A stretch of DNA of 40,223 bases from a virus. Shown in pieces: positions 1,108 through 40,223 of the stretch. The DNA lies in IMG/VR virus record IMGVR_UViG_3300027896_000098, positions 1-40,223 of that record; one strand, 5' to 3'. The first letter of the stretch is position 1. Every line of letters begins with the position of its first letter. The notes under the pieces were generated by a model that saw only the letters and a list, made by a program, of their open reading frames with translations, searched no databases and was not told the origin of the DNA. Made by a program: the position numbers and the translations under genes.

Positions 1108-1130
1108 AGTTTAAAAGGAGTATATTGTAT

Positions 1131-1685
1131 ATGAGTGAAGACTTAGTAGTGTTATATTCAGGTGGAGCTGATTCCACATTACTATTAAAGTTAGCTGAAC
1201 TAATGAATCGTAAAGTATTCGCAGTTATGATTGATTATGGACAGTTACATGTTCAAGAGTTAGTATTTGCTAGAGATCAACTTAAAAAACTAAAAATTCC
1301 AAATACTACTATTAAAATATCAAATTATGATGTAAATTCAGCTCTAACTGGAATTGGAGAAAAAGGATTATATCCAGGTGTTGATATTCATAATGTTCCA
1401 GCAAGAAATTCTATATTTTTATCATTAGCTTATGGTATAGCTGAATCAAAAGGAATTACAGAAATATGGTATGGTGCAAATTGGGAAGATTATGAGCATC
1501 TATTTCCAGATTGTTATCAAGAATATATTGGAAGAATGAATAGAGTTTTAGAAATATCTGGTGTAAGACCAATTAAAGTTTATGCACCTCTACTAGGTAT
1601 GCAAAAATACATGGTTCAAGACTTATTAAAAGCTTATGGCATAAAAGATGAAGATATTTATAGTGGATATGGAGAATTTAAGTGA
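1131..1685 (+). CDS. queC: QueC-like 7-cyano-7-deazaguanine (preQ0) synthase
   Basis: QueC converts 7-carboxy-7-deazaguanine to preQ0 using ATP and ammonia. The N-terminal PP-loop SGGADS (residues 10-15), YGQ (36-38) and VPARN (89-93), plus a later G-x-N-x-EDY stretch, match the family. The ATG at 1131 is chosen because AAAGGAG lies about 10 bases upstream; an in-frame TTG at 1125 is too close to it. Oddly, the protein stops where the zinc-binding four-cysteine tail of ordinary QueC would begin (it ends YSGYGEFK). It leads a nucleotide operon; the stop overlaps the next start (GTGA). With QueE and DpdA elsewhere in the window it points to deazaguanine in DNA rather than tRNA. Confidence 0.88.
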   Translation: MSEDLVVLYSGGADSTLLLKLAELMNRKVFAVMIDYGQLHVQELVFARDQLKKLKIPNTTIKISNYDVNSALTGIGEKGLYPGVDIHNVPARNSIFLSLAYGIAESKGITEIWYGANWEDYEHLFPDCYQEYIGRMNRVLEISGVRPIKVYAPLLGMQKYMVQDLLKAYGIKDEDIYSGYGEFK

Positions 1686-3767: not shown

Positions 3768-4319
3768 TTAACGTTCTGGACTGGTATCTAAAACTTGATC
3801 CCAGGTTTTTGATTTGAATCTGTTTTCTTTAGAAGAGTATCTATCACAATCAACAATAATAGAATTTTCTAATCTGGGTTTAATCGGATGTGTTGAGCAC
3901 TTTCCAGTATTATTATTTAAACAATCTTCTTTTGTGCATAAACTAATAGTTACAAGTGCTTTAGGATTTATTATTACTGATTTTTGATGTGCTCTTCCAG
4001 GATGTTTCACTTCATTTGGGGATCCCTTTAATTTTGTTAAATCTTTCTTTATTAATGTAGGTAACAAACTAACTTTAGTATTTTTGATCCCTTTAGGAAT
4101 TAGACGAGATCCATCTTGAAATACAAAACCTTTTTTGTTTAGAAACTCCAGGAATAACGTAGGAACAAAAGAATTTCTATCATCGTCACTTTCGCACCAT
4201 TTTCTTAATTGTTTTTTAGGAATTATTTTTCGATTCTGACAAACAAAGTCATCAACCAAATAAACTATATCATCAAGAAACATTCCTTCAAAAGTATCTG
4301 GTAATTTTACTTCATGCAT
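3768..4319 (-). CDS. hypothetical protein with Cys/His cluster, about 183 aa
   Basis: I do not recognise this protein. The N-terminal half looks helical and resembles a winged-helix (LRKWCESDDDRNSFVPTLF). The C-terminal third contains a cysteine/histidine group (C-T-x-x-x-C ... C-S-T-H) that may bind a metal. A GGGGGGAG run lies just before the ATG at 4319; an in-frame ATG at 4331 has no ribosome-binding site. Terminators lie on both sides. Confidence 0.7.
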   Translation of the reverse strand: MHEVKLPDTFEGMFLDDIVYLVDDFVCQNRKIIPKKQLRKWCESDDDRNSFVPTLFLEFLNKKGFVFQDGSRLIPKGIKNTKVSLLPTLIKKDLTKLKGSPNEVKHPGRAHQKSVIINPKALVTISLCTKEDCLNNNTGKCSTHPIKPRLENSIIVDCDRYSSKENRFKSKTWDQVLDTSPER

Positions 4320-4340
4320 AACTCCCCCCATTAATATTAA

Positions 4341-4376
4341 AAAACTTGGGTAGATCTAGGAACCTACCCAAGTTTT
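4341..4376. terminator. bidirectional terminator between two leftward genes
   Basis: A perfect 13-bp stem AAAACTTGGGTAG / CTACCCAAGTTTT with an A run on one side and a T run on the other separates the 4.7 kb and 4.3 kb leftward genes. The downstream gene therefore needs its own promoter or readthrough. Confidence 0.85.
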
Positions 4377-4395
4377 AGTAGTTAAATTTTTACCA

Positions 4396-4701
4396 TTAAA
4401 TGTTTAAGCTCAGTTGATATGAGTTTCCTTTTAAATACTCAGAAGGTTTATTGGTATCCAATTTCTTTTTAATTCCTAATAACAATGCAGAGGAAATTAA
4501 TTTTTCAATTTCAATTGGGAGAACCAACCACTGCGGCTTTCCGTAACTCTGTGGGTATCCAATTCCATTTGAATACCACCTGCAAGCAATGGAATATTGC
4601 CACAAACCTTTGTCTGTTTTCCAATTACCTGCTGCAATAGCAAAGGACCCATCATCGTAAATAACTTCTTTAACACTGAATCTTGACGTACTGCACTTCA
4701 T
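4396..4701 (-). CDS. hypothetical protein, 101 aa
   Basis: I do not recognise this protein. It is rich in aromatic residues (several W and Y) and beta-like in pattern. AAAGGAGG lies upstream of the ATG. It is the only gene downstream of the unusual 300-base structured leader (4702-5000), so its expression may be controlled by that RNA. Confidence 0.7.
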   Translation of the reverse strand: MKCSTSRFSVKEVIYDDGSFAIAAGNWKTDKGLWQYSIACRWYSNGIGYPQSYGKPQWLVLPIEIEKLISSALLLGIKKKLDTNKPSEYLKGNSYQLSLNI

Positions 4702-5000
4702 AATTACCTCCTTTTATAAGGTCTCTACTGGTGGTTTATTAACTTTTGATAGCAACTTAGCTATCCATCTTAGGCCGCGATAAGGAAAATGTAATAATAA
4801 CTTGGTTTTCCAGCATTTTCCTTATCGGGGTGAGGCAAATTCTGCTATCCGGAGAACCGCATCTTCCTAATGCGCAACGATTATAAGACGGCGCAACCAC
4901 TAAGGGTTTGTTGGAGGTCAGCAGTAGACGATCTTATTGGGCATCACACCAATGTCGATCTAACCGGAGAATTAAATATCCAAGACTATCTAATTCAAAT
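4702..5000 (-). ncRNA. candidate structured leader RNA or ncRNA
   Basis: These 299 bases hold no convincing gene and are richer in G+C than their surroundings. They contain a perfect 14-bp inverted repeat (CGATAAGGAAAATG at 4778-4791 with its complement at 4814-4827, loop 22), a 6-bp hairpin GATAGC / GCTATC (4748-4765), and ATTGG / CCAAT in the right part. They lie between the leftward 4.7 kb gene and the motif at 5001-5016, so they would be the 5' leader of a leftward transcript. No known riboswitch or ribozyme core is recognised, and the strand is inferred. Confidence 0.4.
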
Positions 5001-5016
5001 ATTAATATATATAGTA
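5001..5016. promoter_or_regulatory. divergent-junction motif, copy 3
   Basis: ATTAATATATATAGTA lies between the structured leader (leftward) and the rightward gene at 5066. It has the same orientation as all other copies. Confidence 0.55.
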
Positions 5017-5034
5017 GAATCTATTTTAAATTTT

Positions 5035-5041
5035 AAGAACA
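5035..5041 (+). promoter_or_regulatory. AGAACA-type element before the 5.1 kb gene
   Basis: AAGAACA lies 25 bases upstream of the ATG at 5066. It belongs to the AGAACA family seen before rightward genes. Confidence 0.4.
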
Positions 5042-5065
5042 AACAACAAAAGTAAGGGGTTAATA

Positions 5066-5473
5066 ATGGTTTTAACAGGATATCTTGCTGGATGGTCACA
5101 ATATACAGAATATAGAGAATTTGCAATAAAAAATTATGGAGATAAAGTAAATCTTTTAAATCCAATGTCAATTACACATTTAGAAGTAATTGATAATATT
5201 GGAAAAAATGAGTATGATACATATATAGTTAGAAGAGATAAAAAATTAATTTTGAGTTCTGATATTTTAGTTGCATACTTGGGAGATCAGGGAAGCACTT
5301 GGGGAACAACTATGGAGATTATATTTGCATATGAAAATGGAGTTCCTGTTTATGTAATTGATACAACATTAGGTATGAAAAACTATAATGATGCTTGGGT
5401 TAAGTTTCATACCAAGAAAGTATTTGATTCAATTACAGAATGTTTTGAGTATATTATTAGTAGAAAATTCTAG
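5066..5473 (+). CDS. nucleoside 2-deoxyribosyltransferase-like protein, second copy
   Basis: This 135-aa protein carries the family signature G-x-x-G-S-T-W-G-T-x-x-E-I-x-x-A-Y followed by G-V-P-V-Y-V-I. The catalytic-type Glu is present, unlike in the copy at 2.1 kb. The N-terminal GYLAGW loop and a central N-P-M match base-binding parts of the fold. The family transfers deoxyribose between bases or hydrolyses deoxynucleosides. The stop is TAG, and a TAA follows in frame three codons later. It is a probable nucleotide-pool enzyme; the true substrate is unknown. Confidence 0.65.
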   Translation: MVLTGYLAGWSQYTEYREFAIKNYGDKVNLLNPMSITHLEVIDNIGKNEYDTYIVRRDKKLILSSDILVAYLGDQGSTWGTTMEIIFAYENGVPVYVIDTTLGMKNYNDAWVKFHTKKVFDSITECFEYIISRKF

Positions 5474-5490
5474 ATATTTACTTAATTTAT

Positions 5491-5507
5491 TAGAACATAC
5501 ATTAAAC
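5491..5507 (+). promoter_or_regulatory. TAGAACA element before the 5.5 kb gene
   Basis: TAGAACATACATTAAAC lies between the end of the preceding gene and the AAAGGAG site of the next gene. Confidence 0.45.
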
Positions 5508-5523
5508 TTTAAAGGAGAGAAAT

Positions 5524-5997
5524 ATGTCAATGGGAGCAGCTGGGGTAATGAAAAAAGAAAAAAGTAAGAATATGGGGATAGAAGCGAATGATGGTCATAC
5601 AAGAGATGATAGTCAAACAGCAACAAGATTATTAGATAAAAATTGGAGTCCATTAATTGTAAGAAAATATCAAATGTTAGGGTGGCCACTATATATTGGA
5701 ATGATATGTGATGCTAACTTAAATGATTTAGATACAGTAATTTATGCTTTAAGTGATGAAGCAGAAAAACTAGGATTTATGAATGGAAGTATTCAAGGAA
5801 CCAGAAACTATTGTGGTTTTTTAAGTGATGGTATTGTTAAATACTATAATTCAATTAAAAAAGGTGTAACAGAAGGAGTTGCTGTGTGCTGGTATGTAGA
5901 TAAATGTTTTGTTTCTTCTATGTATGGTGATTTAATGACCCACGAAAAGTGTGCAGCAGAATTTTATTCAATTTTAAACATGTTACCGCATATTTAA
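5524..5997 (+). CDS. hypothetical protein, 157 aa
   Basis: I do not recognise this protein. It has a charged, probably disordered N-terminus (about residues 1-40) followed by a compact mixed alpha/beta domain with several cysteines but no CxxC pair. AAAGGAG lies about 6 bases before the ATG, and a TAGAACA element sits further upstream. Confidence 0.7.
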   Translation: MSMGAAGVMKKEKSKNMGIEANDGHTRDDSQTATRLLDKNWSPLIVRKYQMLGWPLYIGMICDANLNDLDTVIYALSDEAEKLGFMNGSIQGTRNYCGFLSDGIVKYYNSIKKGVTEGVAVCWYVDKCFVSSMYGDLMTHEKCAAEFYSILNMLPHI

Positions 5998-6029
5998 TAG
6001 AAAATAAACTAAAAGGAGAATTGTTAAAA

Positions 6030-6317
6030 ATGAAAGAAGAAAACAAAGGGAAAAAATGGGCAGATGAAGATTTAACATTAATTTTAAGTATGGTTCCTTC
6101 TATATTTAATAGAGATCATTTAGCAAAAATGTTAGGTAGAACTCCAAGAGCGATTGAATTTATATGGGAGGGTGCTTATGGAACTACTAAACTATTACGT
6201 GAAGAAAAAGGGTTACCAAGACTAAAAAATATGAAAGATAAACTTGGGATATATAATAATCTTTGTATGGTAACTTCTAAATCTAAATCAATAATTGAGT
6301 TAGTAGAGAACAAATAA
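6030..6317 (+). CDS. SANT/Myb-like helix-turn-helix protein, 95 aa
   Basis: The N-terminal half (KKWADEDLTLILSM ... HLAKMLGRTPRAIEFI) has the three-helix pattern of Myb/SANT-type DNA-binding proteins: an early W and acidic pair, then a turn (LGRTPRAI) like a recognition helix. AAAGGAG lies upstream of the ATG at 6030; an upstream in-frame ATG at 5949 overlaps the preceding gene and lacks a site. It is a possible transcription regulator for the following tRNA/Pth2 region, inferred only. Confidence 0.6.
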   Translation: MKEENKGKKWADEDLTLILSMVPSIFNRDHLAKMLGRTPRAIEFIWEGAYGTTKLLREEKGLPRLKNMKDKLGIYNNLCMVTSKSKSIIELVENK

Positions 6318-7006: not shown

Positions 7007-7084
7007 GGTTCTATAGCTGAGACTGGTCTAGCGGGGATCTCTAAAGTCCTGTCAACGTGGGTTCGAGTCCCACTAGAACCTCCA
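7007..7084 (+). tRNA. tRNA with anticodon CUA (amber suppressor)
   Basis: A full cloverleaf is visible. The acceptor is GGTTCTA / TAGAACC, the D-stem GCTG / TAGC, the anticodon stem GGGAT / GTCCT (two G.U pairs), and the T-arm GTGGG-TTCGAGT-CCCAC. An encoded CCA follows a U73. The seven-base loop CTCTAAA gives U33 and anticodon CTA (7041-7043), which reads UAG. The variable loop is six bases. Which amino acid is loaded cannot be told. It starts 8 bases after the Pth2 TAG stop, so it is probably cotranscribed and then processed. Confidence 0.9.
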
Positions 7085-18394: not shown

Positions 18395-18431
18395 TAAATT
18401 TTAACTATGATTAGAAAAATTTTTTAATGGT

Positions 18432-18447
18432 AAGAACATATTTTAAA
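18432..18447 (+). promoter_or_regulatory. AGAACA-type element before the polymerase gene
   Basis: AAGAACATATTTTAAA lies about 13-28 bases upstream of the TTG start at 18460. It would lie inside the coding region if the ATG at 18427 were used, which is one reason to prefer the later start. Confidence 0.45.
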
Positions 18448-18459
18448 AAGGAGTTTATA

Positions 18460-21400
18460 TTGTTTAGTATAAAAAAATCATTAGCAGATTGTATGAGTTG
18501 TGAATTATTTTCTGCTAATTCTTGTATTCTCGAAACTAATTGTAAAACATTTGATGAGGTAGAAATAATTTTTGTAGCTGAAAATCCTGGTGATGATGAA
18601 GTAAAACATAATCCTCCAGTTCCATTAATAGGCAGAGCAGGTCAGACATTTAGAAAATATTTTAAAAAATATCATTTAGATAATGCAAAATATCTTTTAA
18701 CAAATGTAGTATTATGTCAAACAGTAAAAAAAGATGGTACAACAGGAAACCCATCAAAACAAGTAATTGAAAGATGTAAAGTAAATTGTTTTGATATAGT
18801 TGAAAAATGCAATCCAAAATTAATAGTATTAATGGGGTCATCTGCTGGGTTAGCTTTTGAATTATTTGATGGAACAGGTATAACTAGTATAAGAGGAACT
18901 ATTTTTAAGTGGAAAAATATAGACGCATTGTTAACGTTTCATCCTAGTTATGTAAATAGAAATAGGGAAGAAGAACCAAAATTTGAAATTGATATTAAAA
19001 AAGCTGCAGAGATGATAGGATTAAAATCTTCAATCAATGTAGTTAGAAAAGATGAATCTGGGAAAAAAGGAGTTTTCTATTATAAAATTCCAGATAAATA
19101 TTATACATCTGATTATAAATTAATTGATGTTCAATATTTAACAAAAACAAATGAAGTATTATATATTTTTAGAGATAAAGATAATAATAAAGTTTATCAT
19201 AAAGAGAATGATACATATGTTTGTTATCAAACTCCAAAAGATGTAGATTCAAGACCCACAATGAATTATGATGATCTATATCAAGTTAAACTTCCATACA
19301 AACAAAGAGCAACATTAGATCCTTCAATAACTTATGAAGGTGATATTAAAATAACAGTTAAACATTGTCAAGATTATTATATCCAGAAAAAAGTTGAAGA
19401 TCCAAATGTTAAATTAAATATAATGTTTATAGATATTGAAAATTATTCTGAAACAAGAGAATATTCAACTGTTGAAGATGCTAAAGATCCCATAGTTATA
19501 ATTGGATTTTTGTATAATGGAATTCATAAAACATATGTTGTTGATCCAAAAGTTTATGGAATAAAAAATTTAGTAGAAAAGATAGAGTTAAAAGAAAATG
19601 AAGAAGTTTTATTCTTTAAAACTGAAAGGGAAATGATAAGTAAGTTTTTACTAGATTGTAGAAAATTAGATCCAGATGTAATTACTGGATGGTTTGCTGA
19701 TGAATTTGACTTACCTTACATTGTAAATAGATGTAAAAAAATAGGAATTAATTCATTTACAATGAGTAAGTTTGATGAAGTTGAGCTTGATTATTATAGA
19801 CATAGTGTTAATATTTTAGGAGTAGTTGTTTCTGATTTATTATACTTATATAAGATGTATTCATTAGGAAAAAAAGAAAGTTATAAATTAGATTTTATTG
19901 GTAATTTAGAACTTAAAATGGGAAAATTAGGAGAAGGTTCTAATTTTTCTGATATGTTTAAAAATAGTCCATCTGAAGCAATAAAATATAATATGCAAGA
20001 CGTTAGAATTTTACCTTTATTAAATACCAAGATGAAACATTTAGAGCTACAAAATAAAATTAGAGAAACATGTAAAGCAAGTTTTAATGCAGCTAAAAGT
20101 CAAATGGGTCAATTAGATTCATTAATTGTATCATTTTTAAAAGAAAAAGGATTATCTTCTAAAAATGCTAATATAAGTGGGAAAGATGAAGAGTTTGAAG
20201 GAGCTTATGTAAAACCTCCAACTGTTGGGGTTCATGATTATATTGTTGACTTCGATTTTGCTTCTCTATATCCAAGTTTAATTTTAACTTATAACATAGG
20301 TATTAATTCATTTGTTATGAAATTTGATGATTATACTTTAGGTTATGATTTAGCATATAGTAAAGAAAATCTTCCAGATCAAATGAAAGTAATAGTAGAT
20401 CCATCATTTTCAAAGAAAGAATATATGATTACAAAAGAACAATTACTAAAGAAAATTGAAGATGGTAATTTAATATGCACAATTAATGGTTGTTTTTATC
20501 AACCACATGATAAAGAATTATCATTTTATAGTGAAATTCTTGAAATTTTATTGTCAGAAAGAAAAGTGTATAAAAAGAAAATGTTTGATGCTAAAGTAGC
20601 TAAAGATGAAGAAAAAGAACAACTTTATGATGTTAGACAAAATGCAACAAAGATTCTTGCAAATGCTATGTATGGAGTTTTTGGAAATAATGCTTTTAGA
20701 TTTTATAATGTAGATTGTGCTAGGTCTATTACTTTAAGTGGTCAAGAATCATTAAAAAGTTCAATTATAGAAGGTAACGCTTTTGTTGAAGGTTTAAAAA
20801 ATGATAAATTTATAAAACCAGATTCATTAAGTAAAAGAGAAATGTATTCAGAAGATTTTAATAGAGTAACCAAATATATTATAACCGGAGATACAGATTC
20901 AATTTTTGTATGTTTAGATCTACTTCTTGATAAAAAGAAAACAGATGATGAAAAAGTTAAAGATGTTTTAAATTATTGTAATCAAATTCAAAAATATTTA
21001 AATAAAGAAGTTATTGAAACTATAGTTAAAAGACATTCAAATTTAATTGAAAAAAGTAGATTAGAATTAAAAAATGAGTTAGTTATAAAAAGAGGATTAT
21101 TTTTAGCTAAAAAAAGATACGTAAATCATATTATATACCAAGAAGGAAAAAAAGTAGATGATATAAAAAGTATGGGTGTAGAAACAAAAAGATCTGATTT
21201 TCCTTCAATGAGTAAAATTAAATTACAGGAGTTAATAGAATTAATATTAAAATCTAAAGAAGTTAAATTTAGTAATCTATTATCTTTTGTTAAGGGTACA
21301 GAATCTCAATTTACTAAAATAATAAAAGAAAGAAAAAAAGAAATAGCAAGACCAGTTTCATTTACCAAAAAATTAAAAGACTATAAAGTTATTCCACAAG

Positions 21401-21708
21401 GAGTAAAGGGGTGCTTAAATTGGAATGATCTTGAATATAGAGTTTTTGACGTAGGTTCTAGAGGATACTTATATAAAATATTAGGAATTGATTTAGAAAA
21501 AGCACCAAAGAATGTAGCAGATAAGTATGACAAAGAATTTTTATCAAAGGGAAGAAAATTAACAGAAATTGTTCTTCCTGATGATTTAGAAACTCTTCCT
21601 AATTATTACATTATTGATGAAAAAGAAATGTTAAAATTTTCTTGGATTGATAGATATAGTTTAATGTTAGAACCACTCGTACCAAAAAGTGAAATGTTAA
21701 AATTTTAG
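18460..21708 (+). CDS. uracil-DNA glycosylase / family B DNA polymerase fusion, 1082 aa
   Basis: This is the replicative polymerase. Residues about 10-190 form a family-4-type UDG domain: C-M-S-C, G-x-x-x-E-V (AENPGDDE), V-P-L-I-G-R-A-G and a late F-H-P-S. Then come the 3'-5' exonuclease (DIENYSE near 320; D-V-I-T-G-W-F near 405; Y-N-M-Q-D near 510) and PolB motifs A (D-F-x-S-L-Y-P-S, near 596), B (K-I-L-A-N-A-M-Y-G, near 730) and C (G-D-T-D-S, near 809). The TTG at 18460 is chosen because AAAGGAG lies 7 bases upstream. A UDG-like domain also precedes the polymerase of phage SPO1, but that one is family A. The stop is TAG with no close backup. Confidence 0.9.
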   Translation: MFSIKKSLADCMSCELFSANSCILETNCKTFDEVEIIFVAENPGDDEVKHNPPVPLIGRAGQTFRKYFKKYHLDNAKYLLTNVVLCQTVKKDGTTGNPSKQVIERCKVNCFDIVEKCNPKLIVLMGSSAGLAFELFDGTGITSIRGTIFKWKNIDALLTFHPSYVNRNREEEPKFEIDIKKAAEMIGLKSSINVVRKDESGKKGVFYYKIPDKYYTSDYKLIDVQYLTKTNEVLYIFRDKDNNKVYHKENDTYVCYQTPKDVDSRPTMNYDDLYQVKLPYKQRATLDPSITYEGDIKITVKHCQDYYIQKKVEDPNVKLNIMFIDIENYSETREYSTVEDAKDPIVIIGFLYNGIHKTYVVDPKVYGIKNLVEKIELKENEEVLFFKTEREMISKFLLDCRKLDPDVITGWFADEFDLPYIVNRCKKIGINSFTMSKFDEVELDYYRHSVNILGVVVSDLLYLYKMYSLGKKESYKLDFIGNLELKMGKLGEGSNFSDMFKNSPSEAIKYNMQDVRILPLLNTKMKHLELQNKIRETCKASFNAAKSQMGQLDSLIVSFLKEKGLSSKNANISGKDEEFEGAYVKPPTVGVHDYIVDFDFASLYPSLILTYNIGINSFVMKFDDYTLGYDLAYSKENLPDQMKVIVDPSFSKKEYMITKEQLLKKIEDGNLICTINGCFYQPHDKELSFYSEILEILLSERKVYKKKMFDAKVAKDEEKEQLYDVRQNATKILANAMYGVFGNNAFRFYNVDCARSITLSGQESLKSSIIEGNAFVEGLKNDKFIKPDSLSKREMYSEDFNRVTKYIITGDTDSIFVCLDLLLDKKKTDDEKVKDVLNYCNQIQKYLNKEVIETIVKRHSNLIEKSRLELKNELVIKRGLFLAKKRYVNHIIYQEGKKVDDIKSMGVETKRSDFPSMSKIKLQELIELILKSKEVKFSNLLSFVKGTESQFTKIIKERKKEIARPVSFTKKLKDYKVIPQGVKGCLNWNDLEYRVFDVGSRGYLYKILGIDLEKAPKNVADKYDKEFLSKGRKLTEIVLPDDLETLPNYYIIDEKEMLKFSWIDRYSLMLEPLVPKSEMLKF

Positions 21709-22926: not shown

Positions 22927-22945
22927 ATTTATGAAAGGATTAAAT

Positions 22946-23644
22946 ATGAAAACAGTAAGACTAATTGAGTTTTTTAATTGGACATGGCAAGGTGAGGGAG
23001 AAGACAGTGGTAAGAAAATGCTTCTTCTAAGATTTAAACATTGTAATAGAGCACATGGATATTTAGTAAAGAATGGGTTAAAAGCTTGTCGATATTGTGA
23101 TACTCTTACAAAAATGAGTGTTGTTCAAGAAGCGGAATATGCAATTAAAGACATTCAAACCGCTATTGAAGAAAATAATTTAGCAGTAATGATAAGTGGA
23201 GGAGAACCTGGATTTGGAATAAATTTGCAATCAACTATTGATATAGTTAACTTAACTAAATCTTATTTATACAATATAGAAACAAATGGTTGTGATTTAG
23301 AAAAATTAATAGATGGAATACATAAACAAAAGAATGTTAAATTTATGTTATCCCCAAAATTATTTACAGAAGATGATTTTAATTATTATGCAGATCTTTT
23401 AGATAAAGTAAAAGATAATGATAAAGTAAAAATAAAATTAGTTTATGAGGAAGATAACCCATTGATAATTAAATTTTTATTATATCTTCAAAAAATTAAT
23501 TTTGATAATAATAAACTCTGGTTAATGCCAGAAGGAAAAAATATGGTAGAATTAATTAAAAATTCCCCATGTGTTTTTGATGCATCTGAAAAATATAAAG
23601 CAAACTTTAGTTCTAGAAATCATATAGTTTATAATTTTACATAA
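22946..23644 (+). CDS. queE: QueE-like 7-carboxy-7-deazaguanine synthase (radical SAM)
   Basis: QueE makes 7-carboxy-7-deazaguanine from tetrahydropterin. The N-terminus (FFNWTWQGEGEDSG) and the cluster motif C33-x14-C48-x2-C51 fit the CX14CX2C subgroup of QueE rather than the usual CX3CX2C. G-G-E-P follows for SAM binding, and S-P-K comes later. At 232 aa it is of normal length. AAAGGA lies before the ATG at 22946; an ATG 15 bases earlier is not preferred. It supplies the substrate for QueC (1.1 kb). Confidence 0.88.
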   Translation: MKTVRLIEFFNWTWQGEGEDSGKKMLLLRFKHCNRAHGYLVKNGLKACRYCDTLTKMSVVQEAEYAIKDIQTAIEENNLAVMISGGEPGFGINLQSTIDIVNLTKSYLYNIETNGCDLEKLIDGIHKQKNVKFMLSPKLFTEDDFNYYADLLDKVKDNDKVKIKLVYEEDNPLIIKFLLYLQKINFDNNKLWLMPEGKNMVELIKNSPCVFDASEKYKANFSSRNHIVYNFT

Positions 23645-36700: not shown

Positions 36701-36781
36701 ATGTATTTAATTCGGTTGGATTTTGTACAGAAAAATTCGGATCTAAAATTACTACTTATTAATTATGGAGGAAAAAAATTT

Positions 36782-38251
36782 ATGAAAGAACTATTAATGG
36801 AAGCTTACAAAGCAACCAAAAAAGTTTCTGGTATTGATCCCTCAAAACCTGGAAACTTGAAAGCGATTTTGCTAGACGACAATTCTTGGGAAACATATAG
36901 AGATAGTTTAGCGGAAGGGTTGGACAATAAAAAAGATAAAGAAATTTTTAAGATGTTATGTGAGAACACAAGAGTTAGTTTACTTGAAAACTCTATGTTC
37001 CAGATTAATCCGTACGAATCTTTAACGATGCCTATTCTAAGAGTCTTTTATCCAAAGTTTATAGCCAAAGAAGCAGTTACTGTTTCTCCAATGGATAAAC
37101 CAGAATCTGTGAAAGCGTTCATTAAAGCAACATTTACACCATCTAATAGCGTAACTGCTTACAACGCTCCTGTTCTTACCCCAGATATTTCTGGAGGTCC
37201 TGGAATAGGTACTTCTGTTACTGCTACTTTATCCGTTCCTCTACAGGATCATAATATTATTGTAGACGATATTCATCTAACACTTGGTCAGGCACATTTA
37301 GAAAGAGATTTCGAGATTACCGGAGTAAGTGATGGAACTTCATGGACTGATGTTTCTGTTGTTCCTGCTGTTGAAGGTCATTTTAGTTCTACAGTACCTG
37401 TTGGTCTTGTCGGTGGACATGGTGCTGGGAATGATGTTATTTCTGGATATATTGATTATTTAGCTGGAACTATTTCGATTTCTGCTGCAGCTTCTAAAGT
37501 TACAGAAATTCGTTATAAAGTTACCTGTTCTCTTGAAGAAAACCAGGTTAATCCAAAAGTTACAATGACTGTTGAAAAGATCAGACTGTATGCTAAAGAC
37601 AGACAGATCCAGTCAAATTGGACTATTAACATGGAACAGGATATGAGAGCATTATTTGATGTTTCTATGCAGGCGGAAATTGTTAACCTGTTAGGTCAGC
37701 AAATTGCTTTAGATATCGATAGAGAAATTGTTCAGGCTTTAGTTGTTGCAAATTCTCGTTTGAATGGTACTAGCCATCAGGGTTCATTCTTAAGAACTCC
37801 TCCAGATACTTATACCTGGGGAACTAAGTATTGGCATGAAAATATAATCCCTGTGTTGAATAAACTTTCAGCTCAGGTTTATACTGATACCAATATTGAT
37901 GCTGCGAATACAATTCTTGCTAACCCTCTTGATGTAGCTATTCTTGAGGACTTAAATGGATTTGCTTACACTGGAACTTCTACTAATAACGGTGATGTTG
38001 GTTATCGTACTGCTACAGTAGCTGGTGGAAAATGGAAGATATTAACAAGCGCAGTTGTGACACAGGGTAATATGACTCTTATCTACAATCCTTCCGATGA
38101 GATTAGAGCTATTTACTTCTACGCCCCATATGTGCCAAGTATCCTTCATCCATACCCACTAGGATACACTCCTAGTTTAACAATCTTATCAAGATATGCT
38201 ACAGCCTTGGTAAGATCAGGTGGTATTGCTGGATTGACTATTGGAGCTTAA
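36782..38251 (+). CDS. major capsid protein (T4 gp23-like), 489 aa
   Basis: The main shell protein. L-T-M-P-I-L-R-V-F-Y-P and V-S-P-M-D-K-P (about residues 82-110) and the C-terminal F-Y-A-P-Y-V-P ... R-Y-A-T-A-L-V-R-S-G-G match gp23-type HK97-fold capsids. The ATG at 36782 follows GGAGG; an ATG 27 codons upstream has no site. The gene is clearly richer in G+C and in preferred codons than its neighbours, as expected for the most expressed virion gene. GroES-like (24.1 kb) and the gp21-like protease probably act on it. Confidence 0.88.
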   Translation: MKELLMEAYKATKKVSGIDPSKPGNLKAILLDDNSWETYRDSLAEGLDNKKDKEIFKMLCENTRVSLLENSMFQINPYESLTMPILRVFYPKFIAKEAVTVSPMDKPESVKAFIKATFTPSNSVTAYNAPVLTPDISGGPGIGTSVTATLSVPLQDHNIIVDDIHLTLGQAHLERDFEITGVSDGTSWTDVSVVPAVEGHFSSTVPVGLVGGHGAGNDVISGYIDYLAGTISISAAASKVTEIRYKVTCSLEENQVNPKVTMTVEKIRLYAKDRQIQSNWTINMEQDMRALFDVSMQAEIVNLLGQQIALDIDREIVQALVVANSRLNGTSHQGSFLRTPPDTYTWGTKYWHENIIPVLNKLSAQVYTDTNIDAANTILANPLDVAILEDLNGFAYTGTSTNNGDVGYRTATVAGGKWKILTSAVVTQGNMTLIYNPSDEIRAIYFYAPYVPSILHPYPLGYTPSLTILSRYATALVRSGGIAGLTIGA

Positions 38252-38271
38252 TAGTTAACTAAATTTAAAAC

Positions 38272-38314
38272 AAAAAAAGACCTGGATTTGAGAAATCTTT
38301 CCAGGTCTTTTTTT
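38272..38314. terminator. bidirectional terminator between the capsid gene and array 1
   Basis: A perfect 14-bp stem AAAAAAAGACCTGG / CCAGGTCTTTTTTT ends the capsid transcript. It can equally end leftward transcripts that come through array 1. Confidence 0.92.
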
Positions 38315-38320
38315 ACGTTG

Positions 38321-38860
38321 AAAACACTATTCGATCATGGTTTTCTTTTTCAGTCTGGTTCACTGCAGCCGTATGGATTTCTTTCAGGGGGTGGTTCACT
38401 CACTTACGATGGGTTTCTCCTTCATCCTGGTTCACTAAATACTTTAGGATTTCTTTGACTTCTTGGTTCACTGCTACCTCTTGGGTTTCTTAACGCGCTT
38501 GGTTCACTTTTGATCCTTGGGTTACTTTGACTTCTCGGTTCACTTCACATACGTGGATTTCTTGGCTTTCGTGGTTCACTACCCTGGCATGGATTTCTTG
38601 TCCAGTTTGGTTCACTCATGTCTTCTGGTTTTCTGATCGACGATGGTTCACTAATTCTTAATGGGGTTCTTGTTCTCCATGGTTCACTTGAAGCAGTTGG
38701 GTTTCTTGTCTTCCATGATTCACTAATTATTTGCGGATTCCTTGTTCCTAATGGTTCACTTTTTTCAAATGGATTTCTTATTAAATATGGTTCACTTTTT
38801 CTGTTTGGGGTTCTAATGGTTTCTGGTTCACTTAATTATCATAGGTTTTCTATTTAATGA
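38321..38860. repeat. 36-bp periodic array 1 (15 units)
   Basis: Each unit is GGTTCACT, 10 variable bases, GGRTTTCT, 10 variable bases. Block A starts at 38357 and then every 36 bases exactly to 38825 (14 copies, 13 exact; GATTCACT at 38717), preceded in register by a decayed AAAACACT at 38321. Block B varies at its third and fourth bases. The 10-base spacers share no sequence apart from a T bias at the last position. Neither strand is open throughout, although 18 bp equals six codons. It lies between a terminator and the 3' end of the leftward gene at 38882. Confidence 0.95.
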
Positions 38861-38881
38861 TGGTTTGTTCCTCCTTTTATT

Positions 38882-39469
38882 TTACTGGTTAGTCCTTTTA
38901 TTTTTAAAAAATTCATTAGAAAATAATGGATTTCCTAAAGGTTTAAGGTTCATATACTTTTTTGAAAGTTTTTTCCTTTCAGATCTTCTTGCTGAACTTC
39001 TTTTTTTAGATACTATTTTTTCTGCATTAAATTGTTCTACTTTTCCAGAATCTATATCTTCCTGACATATACAATTATAATCAGAAAAATTTTCAACTCT
39101 TTTAATAATTTTTCTAGGTATTACTATTCTATGACTTTTACTTAGAAACATTATAAAAGAATTATAAGATTCAGAATCATTTTTTCTATACCAATCTAAG
39201 AAATTCTCGTATATTTTACGAGATGATTGATTCATACCTAAACCAGGAACTATGACATAAAATATGTCAATTTTCTTATCTGCATAATATACAATAAGAA
39301 TACATCTTTTAAATATTTCTTCGTTAACAAAATTAGGATTTATATCTTCCTTTTTAAAAATAGTTGTTGGTACGGAATAGGAAGTATAATCGTATTCCGG
39401 AAGATAATCAAAATGATCAATTCTAATATTTTGATAGTAATGATCATTCGCATAATTACGCGTAGACAT
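38882..39469 (-). CDS. hypothetical protein between the two arrays, 195 aa
   Basis: I do not recognise this protein. Residues about 30-110 are mixed alpha/beta (ILIVYYADKKIDIFYVIVPG in two strands). The C-terminal 60 residues are very basic (KKRSSARRSERKKLSKKY), as in nucleic-acid binders. AAAGGAG precedes the ATG and the junction motif at 39531-39548 lies 62 bases upstream. Its 3' end is about 20 bases from array 1, with no terminator between, so array 1 is probably its 3' UTR on the leftward transcript. It is the natural candidate partner of the arrays. Confidence 0.7.
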   Translation of the reverse strand: MSTRNYANDHYYQNIRIDHFDYLPEYDYTSYSVPTTIFKKEDINPNFVNEEIFKRCILIVYYADKKIDIFYVIVPGLGMNQSSRKIYENFLDWYRKNDSESYNSFIMFLSKSHRIVIPRKIIKRVENFSDYNCICQEDIDSGKVEQFNAEKIVSKKRSSARRSERKKLSKKYMNLKPLGNPLFSNEFFKNKRTNQ

Positions 39470-39556: not shown

Positions 39557-39596
39557 AAAAAAAGATATAAGTTAGTAATTCACTTATACCTTTTTT
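39557..39596 (-). terminator. terminator at the left edge of array 2
   Basis: AAAAAAAGATATAAGT pairs with ACTTATACCTTTTTT. The single A-C mismatch on the + strand becomes a G.U pair in the leftward RNA, which also ends in a U run. This favours termination of leftward transcripts coming out of array 2, though a weaker rightward hairpin also exists. Confidence 0.6.
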
Positions 39597-40223
39597 CACT
39601 ATCTTGACATGGGTTTCTTTTTCAGGACGGTTCACTAAACATGCATGGATTTCTTCACTAAAATGGTTCACTAATTGTTGATGGTTTTCTCTTTTACATC
39701 GGTTCACTTTTCCGGATTAGGTTTCTTAACTTTTCTGGTTCACTTTGCCACTCAGGAGTTCTTTTCGATTATGGTTCACTTAATATTATTGGGTTTCTTT
39801 TGAATTTTGGTTCACTACAATGTTATGGGTTTCTTTTATACGGTGGTTCACTCTTCTTCCTAGGGATTCTTCCTTTCGATGGTTCACTTTAATTCATTGG
39901 GTTTCTCGGAAACGGTGGTTCACTTCAATCAACTGGATTTCTCTCGATCCTTGGTTCACTATATTATTATGGGTTTCTTTTCGGTAAATGGTTCACTTTT
40001 CATCTTTGGGTTTCTTTTTACCAGTGGTTCACTGCATTTGGCTGGTTTTCTCCGTGATCCTGGTTCACTATATTTTCTTGGATTTCTTTTTAATATTGGT
40101 TCACTTTCTTCTGCTGGGTTTCTGTTTCGACATGGCTCACCTCACTCATTCGGGTTTCTTCCAAGTCAAGGTTCACTGGGTGGGGCTGGTTTTCTCGGAG
40201 ACAATGGTTCACTAAGAAGTCAT
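39593..40223. repeat. 36-bp periodic array 2 (at least 17 units, runs off the window)
   Basis: The same blocks and spacing as array 1. Block A lies at 39629 and every 36 bases to 39953, then, after one 11-base spacer, from 39990 every 36 bases to 40206. A decayed TTTTCACT at 39593 is in register. GGCTCACC at 40134 is the only other weak copy. The spacers differ from those in array 1 and from one another. The one-base slip would break any reading frame. The array continues beyond the right end. Confidence 0.95.

Follow-up and report, generated by a model that had tools for sequence, protein, structure and literature searches.

The right-hand end of a 40,223-base viral record (IMG/VR IMGVR_UViG_3300027896_000098; the window analysed here is the entire record) is made up of short motifs that alternate at a fixed step and run off the sequence, and the question raised by this locus is what kind of element such an array represents. 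On the plus strand, from 39593 to the record end, GGTTCACT alternates with GG[A/G/T]TTTCT every 18 bp. The edge-type motif is found at 18 sites (39593 to 40206) and the loop-type motif at 17, which makes 17 complete units and one that is cut, in agreement with the at least 17 units running off the window that an initial annotation had counted; among the edge-type sites the first (39593) is truncated and the one at 40134 is degenerate. The gap between successive 8-base cores is 10 nt in 33 of the 34 spacers, and the spacer becomes 9 nt when the near-constant base beside CC is assigned to the repeat. The exact 26-bp pattern GGTTCACT-N10-GG[AG]TTTCT occurs 17 times in the window, the listed motifs lying in this array (array 2) and a neighbouring one (array 1), and the repeat pattern of array 2 far exceeds chance. 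The spacers have a G+C content of 0.32-0.34, which is higher than that of the record (0.28).

Read on the minus strand, array 2 has a dual-repeat layout, with the edge repeat AGTGAACC(A), the loop repeat AGAAAYCC(A), 9-base spacers and a last edge truncated at its 3' side; both repeats then look alike, as each runs AG...CC(A), and the 5' end of the RNA would lie beyond 40223. Array 1, whose 5' end starts with AACAAACCA, finishes on the same strand with AGTG, and in each array the truncated edge is followed by a terminator-like hairpin. A simple terminator scan listed neither hairpin, in the case of array 2 because its stem is A/U-rich. The two arrays lie about 723 bp apart (some 730 bases had been estimated) and the best match between their spacers is 8/10, so that no spacer is held in common and a recent duplication, already doubted in the initial annotation, does not explain them. 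Within array 1, two spacers located two units apart (38455-38464 and 38527-38536) are identical at 9/10 bases and look like a partial copy of a unit. The initial annotation had also suggested following the sequence to the right of 40223, and a scan of IMG/VR with the last spacer and repeat of array 2 yielded no contig overlapping that end.

Table 1. Arrays and neighbouring features at the right end of the window.
Feature	Position	Strand	Details
Array 2, TIGR array	39593..40223	-	17 complete 36-nt units; edge AGTGAACC, loop AGAAAYCC; cut by record end
Single 11-nt spacer of array 2	39979..39989	-	Register back at 39990
Terminator-like hairpin and U run, 3' end of array 2	39557..39597	-	After truncated edge AGTGAA; fold z -4.2
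Array 1, TIGR array	38321..38869	-	About 15 units; same repeats as array 2
Terminator-like hairpin and U run, 3' end of array 1	38271..38315	-	Fold z -5.2
Orphan 195-aa ORF	38882..39469	-	Between the arrays, directly upstream of array 1; No relative of Tas detected in HMM or homologue searches
T4 gp23-like major capsid protein gene	36701..38251	+	Followed by the arrays, likewise in capsid relatives L034-L036 and L049

Conserved repeats separated by unrelated spacers recall CRISPR arrays. However, a CRISPR, as worded in PMC12045711, has a single repeat of about 25-36 nt and spacers of like size, whereas the window has two alternating repeats of 8-9 nt with 9-nt spacers, and on these sizes the CRISPR class was rejected for array 2. 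The likeness is instead to the dual-repeat arrays of the RNA-guided, DNA-targeting TIGR-Tas systems published in 2025 (Faure et al., PMC12045711), which share with the window two alternating short repeats, 9-nt spacers, a 36-nt unit, an AG start, a CC(A) end, and a truncated edge followed by a terminator-like hairpin at the 3' end. In array 2 the two alternating repeats fall within the 8-12 nt of the dual-repeat definition, the unit is 36 nt, and the spacers are 9 nt apart from the one 11-nt gap between cores, spacers of up to 12 nt being reported by Faure et al. as exceptions; the truncated edge and a hairpin of the rho-independent terminator type are present in both arrays. The D box of the window repeats differs from the UG of TasR arrays, and according to the same source the repeat boxes may diverge provided that edge and loop agree. 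Array 2 is therefore filed here as a TIGR array, and a complete TIGR-Tas system is probable; the reading of it as a dual-repeat TIGR array that belongs to an uncultured T4-like phage and works by the Tas-guided mechanism set out below is given a probability of about 0.92.

Could the array simply be coding? A gene for a protein of six-residue GSL/GFL repeats, its reading frame changing at the 11-base spacer, might produce a comparable periodicity, and in one related locus (L020, 4871-5398, plus strand) the array does form an open frame of 175 codons with such repeats. This frame is probably fortuitous, because other arrays contain stops: both window arrays have them in all six frames, ORF lists indicate the same for L017 and L006, and the GGT and TCA of the edge motif are invariant at third positions, which makes a repeat-protein gene barely credible. 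The intact frame-shifted ORF that would have overturned the initial annotation was thus not seen, and its view of the array as non-coding, with a one-base slip tolerated at the 11-base spacer, is borne out by these stops together with the shift of frame. What it missed was the minus strand, the guide nature of the RNA, and the published system; its argument about helical phase would lose its force should the repeats be recognised in RNA.

The association of these repeats with Tas genes is established by comparison among relatives. A search of IMG/VR found 24 stretches matching a 26-base array pattern, with clusters of at least four half-units in 16 of them, and an all-against-all comparison of the ORFs at the pattern loci yielded one protein family, common to nine loci. 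Seven non-redundant members of this family were aligned; all seven pass the curated 100-bit threshold of the NCBIfam model NF052498 TIGR_Tas_endo, and a profile built from them recovers TasH (1.5e-52) and TasR (8e-34) from the PDB. Among 42 records (G001-G022 picked by array pattern, G023-G042 by capsid), 12 are matched by the Tas profile and 15 by the array pattern when at most three mismatches are allowed; both occur in 11, so that Tas is present in 11/15 records with the pattern versus 1/27 without it. The capsid-picked records have 0/20 for Tas and 0/20 for the pattern, and the four records with the pattern only (G003, G005, G006, and G011) are all fragments of 7-73 kb, G006 having one weak match only. 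The Tas of L025 had no match in INPHARED.

Regular spacing and strongly conserved 8-base cores would also be expected of iteron- or parS-like sites bound by a partition or replication protein. Such sites are very improbable here, as two different motifs alternate, each array has a terminator-like hairpin on one side, Tas genes are found together with these motifs in the 11 of 15 records just mentioned, and covariation of the spacer ends is restricted to the loop motif, which binding sites would not require.

The window itself contains no tas gene detectable with the seven-protein Tas profile, PF01798 or NF052498, and an orphan ORF stands where tas might be expected. As a divergent Tas, this ORF drew no support from HMM or homologue searches, and its single-sequence fold (mean pLDDT 37) is uninformative on that identity. 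These two facts could be taken to mean that the arrays are true TIGR arrays acquired by recombination, lacking a working Tas and functionless today. This is improbable, as the edge repeats are near-invariant and the register is kept over 32 units, both of which a relic would soon lose, and as the record is a fragment of a genome that, judged from its capsid relatives, probably exceeds 200 kb. In other phages of the group, moreover, arrays can lie far from tas: in G018 tas occupies 218-219 kb, and arrays are found both next to it (219-221 kb) and at 75.6-76.5 kb; G015 is arranged alike; and in G017 an array lies at 44 kb and the tas gene at 108 kb, so that tas-to-array distances of 62-144 kb are found in two other lineages and array neighbourhoods without tas do occur in the subfamily. 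Among capsid-relative loci, 4/24 (two species) carry tas and arrays in their 10-kb flanks, where they follow the capsid gene within about 1-5.5 kb; L049 is one of the four, and the other three, L034-L036, are contigs of a single species. Cultured relatives, among the matches listed, share 24-26% capsid identity.

Several other genes of the window deserve mention in their own right. A 1093-aa ORF (18427-21708, plus strand) combines a family B DNA polymerase with a uracil-DNA-glycosylase-like domain at residues 44-185. A tRNA at 7007-7084 (plus strand) whose anticodon is CTA, called tRNA-Pyl by ARAGORN and plain tRNA by Rfam, is perhaps an amber suppressor; TAG is the terminal codon in 7 of 45 window ORFs checked and therefore still resembles a stop. 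QueC (1125-1685, plus strand) and a radical-SAM protein that we read as QueE-like (22931-23644, plus strand) make 7-deazaguanine DNA modification by the phage possible.

Two phages with known genomes offer a closer comparison. The TasH system of Salicola phage CGphi29 (NC_020844) likewise resides in a phage genome, has a 36-nt unit with alternating CC(A)-ended repeats, 8-9-nt spacers and a terminator-like 3' end, and its Tas is homologous to those of the relatives of the window. The repeat letters differ (AGTGAACC/AGAAAYCC in the window, AAGCGAGCCA/AGACAACCA in Salicola), and the window, unlike the Salicola system, presents two long arrays on a fragment without tas. Microcystis phage Mvi-JY20 (PP438412.1) shows the same array layout followed by a hairpin and a T run, with different repeats (TGCGAGCC and CGAAACCC); its Tas passes NF052498 at 193 bits. 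The Mvi-JY20 array (5540-5870) is unannotated and the adjoining Tas is annotated as a hypothetical protein. A Spirochaetales MAG (JALFYG010000131.1) harbors an array of the same subfamily that is long and degenerate (about 4240-6271), with a Tas-like ORF on the opposite strand (profile E 6.9e-65); this array is the sole match of the array pattern in GTDB.

By analogy with the published systems, from which transcription, processing, and DNA binding are carried over to array 2, the minus strand would be transcribed and the transcript would end at the hairpin near 39557. A phage Tas, probably encoded past the record end or elsewhere in the genome, would bind the edge and loop repeats, and cuts within the edge repeats would release 36-nt tigRNAs composed of spacer A (9 nt), the loop repeat and spacer B (9 nt). 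Spacer A would then pair with one strand of the DNA target and spacer B with the other; for the present subfamily a single base pair at the centre is probably common to both pairing regions, giving a 17-bp target.

This last step derives from a regularity in the spacers themselves. Parsing of the arrays gave 316 distinct tigRNAs. Near-duplicate tigRNAs and duplicate loci were removed before counting, as were units whose spacers were short or whose motifs scored poorly. In a non-redundant set of 160 units with 10+10 spacer bases, the plus-strand base that immediately follows the edge core is complementary to the one immediately following the loop core in 75 cases versus 40.4 expected (z 6.95), the next-best of the 100 position pairs reaching z 2.4. 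A larger set gave 99/199 versus 50.6, the largest of 100,000 permutations being 77, and all four Watson-Crick pairs are raised (40 vs 24.7, 22 vs 12.2, 26 vs 9.7, and 11 vs 4.0 expected). A second parser with a stricter filter found this complementarity in 64/148 non-redundant tigRNAs versus 35.7 (z 5.7; next position pair z 2.9). On the RNA, the two complementary bases are those that close spacers A and B at their 3' ends. The effect is seen across the loop repeat (93/186, 49 expected) and not across the edge repeat (40/186, 49 expected). This contrast defines the unit as edge-A-loop-B from sequence alone.

T4-like relatives show the signal strongly (L006 19/32 vs 8.4; L008 6/12 vs 3.0; L014 19/33 vs 8.8; L025 22/38 vs 11.3; L034 10/17 vs 4.8; L064 12/18 vs 4.9) and the window shows it weakly (13/30 vs 8.4, p 0.01; 9/22 vs 5.0 in the strict set); the count in L017 is 12/26 vs 10.2 (p 0.045). 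The signal is not significant in L020, L068, L063, L011, L026, and L005, nor in the array of the Spirochaetales MAG (8/40 vs 6.0), and by eye neither the Salicola array (1/10) nor the Microcystis array (2/8) shows it. About half of the guides lack end complementarity, which is therefore a tendency. Faure et al. (PMC12045711) describe no obvious covariation of spacers A and B, and the complementarity is new relative to their account.

Why should the spacer ends be complementary? If A and B pair with opposite strands and their 3' ends meet, an orientation deduced from the 8-nt 3' overhangs in PMC12045711, a 1-bp overlap of the two pairing regions would leave exactly this trace. The simplest reading, which we tentatively put forward at somewhat less than even odds, is that in this subfamily the base pair at the centre of a 17-bp target is read by both A and B, each on its own strand. 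For TasR and TasH, published targets have no gap or gaps of 1-2 bp (PMC12045711), and such an overlapping geometry is not described for them. A base pair within the tigRNA, between the last base of A and the last base of B, offers a different explanation that involves no sharing of the target: both bases lie just 5' of the AG of a repeat, at equivalent places in the pseudosymmetric complex (PMC12045711), and in the Salicola array that place is mostly a constant A. Yet G-U is not raised in the larger set (13 vs 15.8 expected), although RNA should tolerate it, and a pair of this kind appears rather unlikely.

The genuine targets and the biological role of TIGR systems are described as open in PMC12045711, and no natural target was found when 286 tigRNAs were compared with 3.55 Mb of their own and related phage DNA at gaps of -1 to 3. 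A large excess at gap -1 in that search is void, because it stems from loci L069-L178, which had been picked with patterns of that very geometry; the other matches listed resemble re-paired controls, and the one perfect gap-3 match (an L055 guide in G039) is at about chance level. An earlier search of 0.72 Mb, made before L069-L178 were added, gave 63 matches at gap -1 with at most two mismatches versus 24-38 in three re-paired controls; these are not taken as targets, because the shared base is counted twice and part of the excess follows from the end complementarity.

Some guides do persist between phages, as 37 pairs of recurring tigRNAs differ at 1-5 of 18 positions, a few at 5 being possibly due to chance. 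One tigRNA is kept in three phages (L006 at 8280, reverse-strand coordinate; L014 at 10943; L064 at 1536): it combines TATACTACTTT with ATACTACATC, with variants, and by eye implies a nearly palindromic target. In some families the homologous guides differ at every third base, one such family being readable as PEWQAC and another as DGQHRV. The idea of a codon phase was not significant over the 37 pairs (22/57 within halves, 22/51 across). Scanning IMG/VR with the PEWQAC pattern returned 77 stretches, 33 of them in frame and mainly from two unrelated gene families, which in a scan with no control peptides proves nothing; a second peptide-pattern scan, also run with no control peptides, gave 33 stretches in assorted genes, and no target is claimed from either scan.

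The locus thus adds to the TIGR systems a capsid-linked subfamily in large T4-like phages, with long arrays, with arrays that may be distant from tas, and with guides conserved between phages. The Mvi-JY20 array, in a phage with a named host, provides a handle for target searches. The end complementarity of the spacers is a testable constraint on target geometry and a filter for such searches. If the shared central base pair is real, a signature in the sequence would separate edge from loop repeats without recourse to RNA data, and the 17-bp geometry would serve to filter candidates for the natural targets of these phage systems.
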